A program made the translations under genes and the position numbers. Shown here one piece after another: positions 45,201 through 51,200 of a DNA stretch of 64,000 bases. The stretch lies in contig LR990041.1 in the NCBI GenBank assembly GCA_905147135.1, positions 19,281,907 through 19,345,906 on the forward strand, read 5' to 3'. The stretch's first letter is position 1. Each line of letters opens with the position of its first letter. The notes under the pieces are model-generated. The model was not told the origin of the DNA. It was given only the letters and a program-made list of their open reading frames with translations, and did no database searches. This DNA comes from Blastobasis lacticolella. Taxonomy: Eukaryota; Arthropoda; Insecta; Lepidoptera; Blastobasidae.

Positions 45201-48200
45201 CTATTTAAATATTGTTATCATCTGTCAGAATATCCTGCATTTCATTGCGATCAAGGACGTTTCGACGACTCGGACGTTCGGACGAGAATGGTACCCCAGC
45301 TCATAATGAACCACCACCACCTCTACTAGCTAGCCACACCGCGCAAGAACCTATTTTGGAATCAGTTGTGACAAGTTATTATAATAGCTTAAGATGATTG
45401 AATGCACTATTATAAAGAGTAAAATTTGTATTTTTGTTTATATTGAATAAACTCAAAAACTATTGGTTCGATTTTATAAATACCTTTACCAATAGAAAGC
45501 TACGTTATTCCCAAGTGACATAGGATACTTTTTATCCCGGGAAAATAATGAATGTTTACAGAGATCCGAACTGCGTGAGAGCTTTTTTTCGTGACGGGAA
45601 CTATATCTAGTGATAAATATTTCAATTTTTATTTCAGATAACTCAAACACTCAACTGGTTAGTGAGAATGACTTCAGAAGTGGAAACTAATATTGTGGCG
45701 GTCGAGAGAATAAAAGAATATGCGGAAACACAGCAGGTACACTTTCGGTTATTATATTTGAATGAAGAAGGGATCGATAGAGGGGACTTGGCATCCGCTA
45801 AGAGGAATTCAGGGAAGGTTTTGAATGAAATGATCTGAAAATATTTGTTGGTTTGCAATGGATAAACTAAAAAACTACTTAACCGATTCTAAAAATTCTT
45901 TCATCTATAGAAATCTACATTACCTATGAGTAACATAGGCCATAGTTTTACCCGATACCGAAAGCGATTCCCACGAGTTCGGAATGTAGCAAATGAATTT
46001 TACGCTACTCGCTACATTGCCCCTTATTTGCTACGTCGAATGAACTGTGAACCACCCGATCCACATAGAAAGCGGCGTGGACGGTCGGTTCCCGCGGGAA
46101 CCGGTTCGGAATGTACCAATCAAATTTTACGCTACTTGCTCCATTGGCATATTAAACGGAGGTGGGCGTTAGTGACAGCGACACAGTGAAAACTGATGCT
46201 GTTGTTACCGTACACTAGTGGTTAATGTATTTGTTTCTATTTAAAATTGTCAATAACCTGGTGGACGCTCCCGCACTGCTACACTGTATATCACTCAGGG
46301 TACCCTACAGACAGGAAAGAAGTGTACGGAAGAAGCAATTGTTTTCAATTGCCTATTTTAAAACATGTTTTGCCAAAAATACTTTCATTCGACGTGCATG
46401 TGGATTCTGTAATAATTTACTCAATGACAAACTGCTTGACGATGTGGATATGTTCAACAATTCATTGGGAACCTTTAAGAAATTGTTATCTTCAAGAGTC
46501 GGCTGTTACGGCTAACTTCTTTAGATTTAGGTGGTTTATATGTAATTTTCTTCAATTGTATTAGTGTTACTATGCAAAATTGGGAACTATAGGTCTATTT
46601 ACAGTAATTTTAATGATTTTGTACGTTGAATATCCCCCCCCCCAGGAAGCCGCGTGGACGATAGGCTCCGGCCCCGGCGCGGACTGGCCGCAGACGGGGG
46701 CGCTGCAGCTGGAGCGCGTGTCGCTGGGCTACCGCGGCGGCGAGCCGGCGCTGCGGGACCTCACCTGCGCGGTGGCGGCCCGGGACAAGCTGGGCATCGT
46801 GGGCCGCACCGGCGCCGGGAAGTCCACGCTCACGCTGGGGCTGTTCCGGATCGTGGAGGCCATGCAGGTGCGTGGGGCAGCGTGGGGGGCCCTGGGGACC
46901 GGCCCGGGACGAGCTGGGCATCGTGGGCCGCACCGGCGCCGGGAAGTCCACGCTCACGCTGGGGCTGTTCCGGATCGTGGAGGCCATGCAGGTGCGTGGG
47001 GCAGCGTGGGGGGCCCTGGGGACCGGCCCGGGACGAGCTGGGCATCGTGGGCCGCACCGGCGCCGGGAAGTCCACGCTCACGCTGGGGCTGTTCCGGATC
47101 GTGGAGGCCATGCAGGTGCGTGGGGCAGCGTGGGGGGCCCTGGGGACCGGCCCGGGACGAGCTGGGCATCGTGGGCCGCACCGGCGCCGGGAAGTCCACG
47201 CTCACGCTGGGGCTGTTCCGGATCGTGGAGGCCATGCAGGTGCGTGGGGCAGCGTGGGGGGCCCTGGGGACCGGCCCGGGACGAGCTGGGCATCGTGGGC
47301 CGCACCGGCGCCGGGAAGTCCACGCTCACGCTGGGGCTGTTCCGGATCGTGGAGGCCATGCAGGTGCGTGGGGCAGCGTGGGGGGCCCTGGGGACCGGCC
47401 CGGGACGAGCTGGGCATCGTGGGCCGCACCGGCGCCGGGAAGTCCACGCTCACGCTGGGGCTGTTCCGGATCGTGGAGGCCATGCAGGTGCGTGGGGCAG
47501 CGTGGGGGGCCCTGGGGACCGGCCCGGGACGAGCTGGGCATCGTGGGCCGCACCGGCGCCGGGAAGTCCACGCTCACGCTGGGGCTGTTCCGGATCGTGG
47601 AGGCCATGCAGGTGCGTGGGGCAGCGTGGGGGGCCCTGGGGACCGGCCCGGGACGAGCTGGGCATCGTGGGCCGCACCGGCGCCGGGAAGTCCACGCTCA
47701 CGCTGGGGCTGTTCCGGATCGTGGAGGCCATGCAGGTGCGTGGGGCAGCGTGGGGGGCCCTGGGGACCGGCCCGGGACGAGCTGGGCATCGTGGGCCGCA
47801 CCGGCGCCGGGAAGTCCACGCTCACGCTGGGGCTGTTCCGGATCGTGGAGGCCATGCAGGTGCGTGGGGCAGCGTGGGGGGCCCTGGGGACCGGCCCGGG
47901 ACGAGCTGGGCATCGTGGGCCGCACCGGCGCCGGGAAGTCCACGCTCACGCTGGGGCTGTTCCGGATCGTGGAGGCCATGCAGGTGCGTGGGGCAGCGTG
48001 GGGGGCCCTGGGGACCGGCCCGGGACGAGCTGGGCATCGTGGGCCGCACCGGCGCCGGGAAGTCCACGCTCACGCTGGGGCTGTTCCGGATCGTGGAGGC
48101 CATGCAGGTGCGTGGGGCAGCGTGGGGGGCCCGGGGGACCGGCCCGGGACGAGCTGGGCATCGTGGGCCGCACCGGCGCCGGGAAGTCCACGCTCACGCT

Positions 48201-51200
48201 GGGGCTGTTCCGGATCGTGGAGGCCATGCAGGTGCGTGGGGCAGCGTGGGGGGCCCTGGGGACCGGCCCGGGACGAGCTGGGCATCGTGGGCCGCACCGG
48301 CGCCGGGAAGTCCACGCTCACGCTGGGGCTGTTCCGGATCGTGGAGGCCATGCAGGTGCGTGGGGCAGCGTGGGGGGCCCTGGGGACCGGCCCGGGACGA
48401 GCTGGGCATCGTGGGCCGCACCGGCGCCGGGAAGTCCACGCTCACGCTGGGGCTGTTCCGGATCGTGGAGGCCATGCAGGTGCGTGGGGCAGCGTGGGGG
48501 GCCCGGGGGACCGGCCCGGGACGAGCTGGGCATCGTGGGCCGCACCGGCGCCGGGAAGTCCACGCTCACGCTGGGGCTGTTCCGGATCGTGGAGGCCATG
48601 CAGGTGCGTGGGGCAGCGTGGGGGGCCCTGGGGACCGGCCCGGGACGAGCTGGGCATCGTGGGCCGCACCGGCGCCGGGAAGTCCACGCTCACGCTGGGG
48701 CTGTTCCGGATCGTGGAGGCCATGCAGGTGCGTGGGGCAGCGTGGGGGGCCCTGGGGACCGGCCCGGGACGAGCTGGGCATCGTGGGCCGCACCGGCGCC
48801 GGGAAGTCCACGCTCACGCTGGGGCTGTTCCGGATCGTGGAGGCCATGCAGGTGCGTGGGGCAGCGTGGGGGGCCCTGGGGACCGGCCCGGGACGAGCTG
48901 GGCATCGTGGGCCGCACCGGCGCCGGGAAGTCCACGCTCACGCTGGGGCTGTTCCGGATCGTGGAGGCCATGCAGGTGCGTGGGGCAGCGTGGGGGGCCC
49001 TGGGGACCGGCCCGGGACGAGCTGGGCATCGTGGGCCGCACCGGCGCCGGGAAGTCCACGCTCACGCTGGGGCTGTTCCGGATCGTGGAGGCCATGCAGG
49101 TGCGTGGGGCAGCGTGGGGGGCCCTGGGGACCGGCCCGGGACGAGCTGGGCATCGTGGGCCGCACCGGCGCCGGGAAGTCCACGCTCACGCTGGGGCTGT
49201 TCCGGATCGTGGAGGCCATGCAGGTGCGTGGGGCAGCGTGGGGGGCCCTGGGGACCGGCCCGGGACGAGCTGGGCATCGTGGGCCGCACCGGCGCCGGGA
49301 AGTCCACGCTCACGCTGGGGCTGTTCCGGATCGTGGAGGCCATGCAGGTGCGTGGGGCAGCGGATGTGGGGCAGGGTAGGAGGGCTCCAGTGCCGAGAGG
49401 TTCCGATTTTGAGCGTCTTCCGGATCGTGGAGGCTATGCAGGTGGGACTGGCTACACACTGGTGTAGTAGGTCTGCGGTATCAAGAGTTTCCGATTTTTA
49501 GCCTCTTCCGGATCGTGGAGGCTATGTAGGTGGGACGGCATGTGTAGGGTAGGACTGGAGTGTCGACAGCTTTCGATTTCTGATCAGCACTGAATGGACG
49601 ATCCGAATCAGTCGGGGAGGGAGATCCGAAACTGGAAGAGATAGAGTCGCTTGTTTTTGAAGAACATGATGAGGCCGATTTGAGAATAAATGAAAGATTT
49701 TAGAAGAAACCCTCATAGATATACAGCAGCGAATCGAACCCGAATAAATTTTGTAAAAATCAAAGGTGTTGTATAACCTAAGGAACATAGTTTGTAAATA
49801 AATATAATTGAAATGATAGGTAGTAGCCACCTTGGCGTCAATATCTCGGTAGAATCGGCCCGGAGTCCGCCTTGATTATGATTCAAGATTTGGCCGATCA
49901 ATAATTACACGTAGAGTGACTGGCATCTGACCTCCGTGACCCTGTTCACAGAGAAATGTGCAGGTATCAAAACGATGTTTTTCCTCACCATAAAAACAAG
50001 TTTGTGGAGGTAATAACTAAAAAAGCTATAATTTAAAAACCTACTAAATATATTAATTCGTTTAACGGACGCTTATGAAACGCAACTTCGAAAATTAAAA
50101 ATTCCATATTATATACTGGTCACGGTATGCCAACCCGCTCCCGAGACTGTTCGGGGTCCCCAAGACTGTCACCTATTTCATTTTTAAATTGTCTACCTAT
50201 ATGAACACTGTTAAGTATAACCTTGGGGTCTTCGAGTCGAGAGTGTAGTGTGTAATAGGTATCTTCTAGACACTTATGCTCCTCGACCTCGTCAAAAGAT
50301 ATGCACCGGTAACTCAACTCAACCGTGTTCCCCCCAGGGCCGGATCCTGATCGACGGCGTGGACATAGCCAAGATCGGGCTGCACCAGCTGCGCTCGCGC
50401 ATCACCATCATCCCGCAGGACCCCGTGCTGTTCTCCGGCACGCTGCGCATGAACCTCGACCCCTTCGCCGCGTACGCCGACGCCGACATCTGGCGGGCGC
50501 TGGAGCACGCGCATCTCAAGAGCTTCGTGGAAGGTAGGTGCCGTCGATACATTCGGTTTAAGTGTTTATTATTTTTGTTTTGGTTTTTTTTTTTTTTTCT
50601 TTCTTGTTCTTTGTTGGTAGGGTATATTGAAGGCATAGAGAGTGCAAACCTTCGCCAAGAAACTGTTTTACAGTTTGGCGAATTATACAAATAAATATTT
50701 ATGATGTACAACATTTATGATAAATAAATAAATAAAAAATTTAGCTGTTGAATTTAGGTTGCACAATTGCAATGGATGACGCTCCTGGTCGGTTATCTGA
50801 ATATTAAACAGCGCCTCTACTCCTGGTTGCCACTATTTCGATCGCCACTATCGCCCTCGTGATAAGAGTTTTCGCAATCCAAAATCCACCAGGTGGACTG
50901 GGGCGTGAGGTCTGCCGTCAAAATAAAGCCCCATTATTGGTTAGAATAATAGAACAGATTCGTTATTTTACAGCAGTCATTTCTGTTCAATAGCGCGGCA
51001 GTATTTTGACAACGGACCTTATTTACTCTGTAATTTGGCAATTTATGTCAAAAAATGTACGTATTCTTAGGCTCCTACAGAATAAACTTTTTTTTATCGG
51101 TAGCGCTACGAGGGGCTATTGTCTAAATCAGTTGGCAACTGGATTTGACATTAACTAATTCTACACTACATTATACGTTTACCACTAAAGCGTTTGCCAA

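Follow-up and report, generated by a model that had tools for sequence, protein, structure and literature searches.

A minisatellite across the donor edge of an NBD2 exon in a lepidopteran MRP1 gene, mirrored by an array at an acceptor edge

Introduction

How can an exon that encodes part of a nucleotide-binding domain (NBD) be spliced when its end, donor included, is repeated about 21 times, and how would such a structure arise? The question is raised by a 64,000-nt stretch of the Blastobasis lacticolella genome (the window), in which the end of a transporter exon and the start of the following intron form a tandem array at 46776-49362. Coordinates are those of the window, and the exons and exon-edge arrays described here lie on its plus strand. 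The original prediction, made from the sequence of this stretch, described the array and its donors but not the acceptor-side array in the same gene, the older copies of exon ends, or the comparable cases known from amphioxus, CBS and ABCA7.

Results

By sequence comparison, the host gene is a lepidopteran MRP1 (ABCC), and the drug transporter identity proposed for it was borne out by tblastn and by the joined frame. Exons were located by tblastn with three lepidopteran MRP1 proteins (Manduca P0028 among them), which covered most of the transporter. The 24 modelled exons, extending from 21 to 53117 with GT-AG borders, join into a single MRP1-like frame of 1395 aa that contains both NBDs and ends in a terminal stop, the 5′ end of the gene lying beyond the window. 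This frame uses the first donor of the 124-bp array, the last acceptor of the 24588-25496 array, and exon ends at 3469 and 9019. The modelled coding exons measure 76-264 nt, with the first truncated by the edge of the window and only the coding bases of the last included, and the introns measure 310-5295 nt. Lepidopteran MRP1 proteins were the best relatives among the best 120 of 7967 matches. The highest identity in the tree sample was to Bicyclus MRP1 (87% over 1395 columns), and a tree of 32 proteins placed the window protein among the sampled Lepidoptera, within no strongly supported group.

Other repeated elements were seen in the gene. Diverged second versions of adjacent exons, at 21565-21726 and about 40090-40316, are likely mutually exclusive or alternative exons; mutually exclusive exons occur in other insect MRP genes. 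A 58-bp array of about 2.6 copies (39128-39301) ends some 20-40 bp 5′ of the acceptor of a transmembrane exon (39321-39544). An intronic array of seven near-identical 52-bp units lies at 12560-12923, and its reverse complement resembles what we take to be a sequence known from lepidopteran repeats.

The array at 46776-49362 is a tandem repeat of minisatellite type, for which TRF reported a period of 124, 20.9 copies, 99% matches, and a score of 5153, in agreement with the roughly 21-fold repetition first described. With a 2.6-kb array of exact period, chance origin is not an issue. The array begins within an NBD2 exon of 222 nt (46646-46867), the 21st of the 24 modelled, which terminates in unit 1; the following NBD2 exon (50338-50533) continues the reading frame when spliced to the first donor. 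The start of this downstream exon had been predicted, and tblastn and the joined frame agree on it and on the acceptor at 46646. Each unit spans an exon-intron border, as had been proposed: in unit 1, the exonic part comprises the last 92 nt of the exon with the Walker A segment (46776-46867), the intronic part comprises the first 32 nt of the intron (46868-46899), and the donor is located at the junction. The intronic part starts with the donor GTGCGT and is G-rich, with 81% GC and G-runs directly 3′ of the donor in each unit. The donor sequence CAGGTGCGT was counted 21 times on the plus strand of the window, every time within the array, which substantiates the claim of about 21 identical donors after one acceptor. 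The Walker A core GGCGCCGGGAAGTCCACG likewise occurs 21 times in the array and 0 times elsewhere on that strand.

Unit-by-unit comparison revealed no differences among units 2-10, 12, 13, and 15-20. Unit 1 carries a single difference, A for G at position 12; units 11 and 14 have in common a T-to-G change at position 118, within the intronic part; and unit 21 follows the repeat over 107 nt before diverging. This near-identity supports the view, already put forward in the original prediction, that the units expanded recently or are being homogenised.

Two further properties of the array were considered and set aside. Freedom from stops in the three plus-strand frames was rejected as a sign of coding, since 2231 of 20,000 shuffled units were equally stop-free. 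The G-quadruplex was found to be a weak candidate for the driver of the array: no motif with loops of 1-7 was present on either strand, and one appeared only when loops of up to 12 were allowed. The best G4Hunter score in the array was 1.88, compared with a maximum of 1.96 elsewhere in the window, where 46 other positions reach 1.5.

Splicing from each donor was followed in silico. The first donor joins EAMQ to GRILIDG and gives the normal protein, as the original prediction had stated; among the array donors and two decayed donors downstream, it alone yields a protein with no insert, shift, or stop. The 22 alternative donors (20 identical, 2 decayed) comprise seven that stay in frame and insert at least 124 aa, eight that lead to an early stop, and seven that shift to a frame that is stop-free up to 53117. 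The A that distinguishes unit 1 lies in a lysine codon (AAG), where units 2-21 encode glutamate (GAG). This lysine, which differs from the catalytic Walker A lysine kept in all units, was found in 124 of 124 occurrences of the motif; these lie in 123 of the 131 proteins fetched, a set that takes in isoforms and paralogues, and the remaining eight are without the motif. Because unit 1 keeps the conserved lysine and the others encode glutamate, we read unit 1 as the probable working unit and the other 20 as intronic passengers, an argument drawn from a single site.

Short exons between long introns favour the pairing of nearest splice sites. The shortness of the NBD2 exon, the length of its flanking introns, and the G-runs 3′ of the donor therefore suggest, from sequence, that the first donor is most likely the one chosen, through exon definition. 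On a rough matrix, the score of the unit donor is 5.11, which is intermediate for this gene, whose other scored donors range from 0.6 to 6.98. With 21 identical donors of such ordinary strength, some use of a downstream donor may still occur.

A second exon-edge minisatellite was found at 24588-25496 by TRF and the joined frame. Its 12 units, the full ones 76-80 bp long, each run from the end of an intron through a CCCCCAG acceptor into an NBD1 exon, of which they include the first 32 nt, and the last unit is cut where that exon, which encodes the NBD1 Walker A (25465-25662; tblastn and joined frame), continues. In silico, the normal frame is obtained from the last unit only; all 11 upstream units lead to an early stop, and one of the 11 has lost its AG. 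Three positions of the exon part, all synonymous, set the last unit apart from the common form. This array is the mirror image of the 124-bp array, with the working copy at the opposite end, as it consists of acceptors.

Older copies of exon ends were detected as well. Downstream of the 124-bp array, a diverged copy of the exon end and donor (GTGGGA) lies at 49418-49444, and a second copy of exon end and donor is located 88 bp from it (49503-49532). Another NBD1 exon (27738-27914; tblastn) has its end and donor duplicated in the next intron, once at 28006-28067 (93.5% over 62 bp) and again, in a more decayed form, at 28209-28248 (90% over 40 bp). Inspection by eye of the same region suggested a possible decayed whole-exon copy near 28620-28700. 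Decayed copies after two exons suggest that edge duplications probably arose more than once in the gene, in repeated rounds.

Related proteins were searched for similar duplications; those fetched are the best-listed part of larger match lists (for example, the best 120 of 7967). A search with part of the array translation listed 76 proteins, among which P0121, from Phthorimaea operculella, scored 67 bits and the others at most 42. In P0121, the segment ALRDVTCC...TLTLGLF occurs twice, offset by 41 aa (123 nt), which doubles the Walker A segment. Another stretch, of about 30 aa, is present four times and corresponds to the end of the exon at 30724-30934 of the window gene. A search with this stretch gave 113 proteins (self 265 bits, others at most 60), and a second copy of HLSD was absent from the proteins fetched from it other than P0121. 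P0121 was the single protein among the 131 fetched in which the NBD2 P-loop motif or the HLSD motif recurs. An exact 9-mer test found internal repeats in 12 of 123 proteins; the 11 besides P0121 lie around the RFSKD exon, and we read them as alternative exons included together. These comparisons say little on how often such arrays occur, because gene predictions hide intronic arrays. P0121 groups with other Gelechioidea (support 91/91), away from the window protein, and its unit borders are not those of the window array. The placement and the borders suggest that the duplication in P0121, itself a gene prediction, is probably an independent event, if real.

Exon borders were also assessed as candidate hotspots of duplication, and enrichment was not clear. 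Local duplicates were found at 3 of 46 borders at every cut-off from 20 to 30, and at 76, 52, 45, 33, and 19 of 1230 control positions outside both arrays at cut-offs of 20, 22, 24, 26, and 30, respectively, so that the control rate falls from 6.2% to 1.5% between cut-offs of 20 and 30. Among positions with GC of at least 0.5 (cut-off 24), the proportions were 3/28 for borders and 25/251 for controls, and with GC of at least 0.55, they were 2/19 and 17/136. The numbers are small, the arrays were kept in the borders and removed from the controls, which biases the comparison toward enrichment, and the run used an exon end of 9018, one base off. Borders thus look tolerated rather than targeted by duplication, since the extra copy of a cross-border duplication ends up in the intron.

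Discussion

The structure is best explained as an exon-edge minisatellite, of the kind termed "mirage", in a lepidopteran MRP1/ABCC gene, in which the first donor is spliced and the array is removed with the intron, nearly neutrally. We give this reading a probability of roughly 0.78. It accounts for the anatomy, the identity of the copies, the open frame from the first donor, the conservation of the lysine, the older copies, and the mirror array, and from these we infer a mechanism of expansion, a choice of donor, and near-neutrality. A tandem duplication across the exon-intron border would have come first, leaving an extra copy in the intron that would be free of selection, because the first donor still closes the normal exon. 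A unit with the AAG-to-GAG change would then have been amplified, through unequal exchange or slippage during replication, until it numbered about 20 near-identical copies, while unit 1 would have been kept distinct because it codes for protein. The array would be spliced out with the intron, save perhaps for low-level missplicing, and the approximately 21 exon-edge copies are probably harmless, because the extra copies sit in the following intron. The boundary units appear to stand outside homogenisation in both arrays: in the 124-bp array, unit 1 differs and unit 21 is cut, the single differing site being thin evidence, and in the 24588-25496 array, it is the last unit that departs from the common sequence.

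That splicing draws on several array donors, so that transcripts with frameshifts or inserts arise and the number of units sets how much working transporter is made, is considered unlikely. The 21 identical donors are what such use would require, and 15 of the 22 alternatives would break or shift the frame; in human ABCA7, the length of a VNTR beginning at a donor is described as altering splicing (PMC5954066), and a donor-spanning VNTR of 16-21 units is tolerated in human CBS (PMC2630376). However, use of the second donor would create an exon of 346 nt, whereas the longest coding exon among the 24 modelled has 264 nt, and the amphioxus Adh3 data and globin RT-PCR suggest regular splicing (PMC3087553).

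It is very unlikely that the array was inflated or misassembled from one or a few true units. Assemblies are known to go wrong at tandem repeats (PMC6868369), but the variants in units 11 and 14, the cut last unit, the distinct first unit, and the decayed neighbours form a natural series, and a second array, with variable units, is present in the same gene. Ongoing intron gain, by tandem duplication as in the Rogers model, or exon creation, with the duplicated AG|GT acting as new introns or exons, is hardly credible, even though AG|GT is present in the units, a potato intron arose when an intron-exon border was duplicated in tandem (PMC4974935), and the predicted Phthorimaea protein contains duplicated segments. 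By eye, no pyrimidine tract precedes the unit AG, so the unit would offer no good acceptor.

Under the exon-edge minisatellite reading, 21 identical donors after one acceptor, together with an acceptor array in the same gene, offer a natural experiment on nearest-site choice by the spliceosome. This reading would carry a phenomenon of amphioxus, known under different names from human disease genes, over to an insect detoxification transporter, and it suggests how a selected exon can keep seeding adjacent repeats. A bolder proposal, quite unlikely in our estimation, is that unstable donor and acceptor arrays in MRP1, here and perhaps in other Lepidoptera, serve as a length-dependent splicing dial, with the units as a conversion reservoir. 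If so, differences in unit number between individuals would lead to different amounts of working transporter, and the 20 variant units might supply K-to-E gene conversion into the functional exon, comparable to the CBS c.844_845ins68 allele, for which gene conversion was proposed by the authors who studied chromosomes carrying it (PMC2630376).

This kind of structure is already known from amphioxus mirages, CBS, and ABCA7; limited literature searches found no exon-edge minisatellite in an insect among the papers they listed. The 31-bp VNTR of human CBS has effects on splicing and activity. It is length-polymorphic, and from its name, c.1444_1467+7(16_21), its unit crosses an exon end and donor, as here; the copy number is similar (16-21), whereas the unit is 124 bp in MRP1 (PMC2630376). 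In CBS c.844_845ins68, the intron 7/exon 8 border is duplicated, and RNA evidence established that splicing uses the distal site and removes the mutant copy upstream (PMC2630376). By analogy, the distal site may be used in the 24588-25496 array, which has 12 units instead of one extra copy. An intronic minisatellite in C. elegans has been linked to multiple splicing decisions (PMC4039745). The ABCA7 VNTR opens with the GT of the exon 18 donor and is located within intron 18, ranging from 12 to 427 units in people, and retention of one unit and skipping of exon 19 were measured (PMC5954066). ABCA7 resembles the present gene as an ABC transporter with an array that begins at a donor, and NBD-coding exons are those whose splicing is affected; it differs in that its 25-bp unit is wholly intronic, whereas the 124-bp unit includes 92 nt of exon.

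The closest likeness is to the amphioxus mirages of Adh3 and the globins BflGb6 and BflGb9, which are minisatellite-like duplications of an exon-intron border at either edge, with splice signals in many units and cluster boundaries exempt from homogenisation (PMC3087553). The globin units measure 150-160 and 157 bp, and two BflGb6 haplotypes carry 6 and 3 units (PMC3087553). The MRP1 arrays share with them the border-spanning units, the same edges, and the exemption of boundary units from homogenisation, and differ in belonging to an insect gene, in occurring as two arrays in one gene, and in reaching about 21 units, compared with the 6 and 3 of BflGb6.
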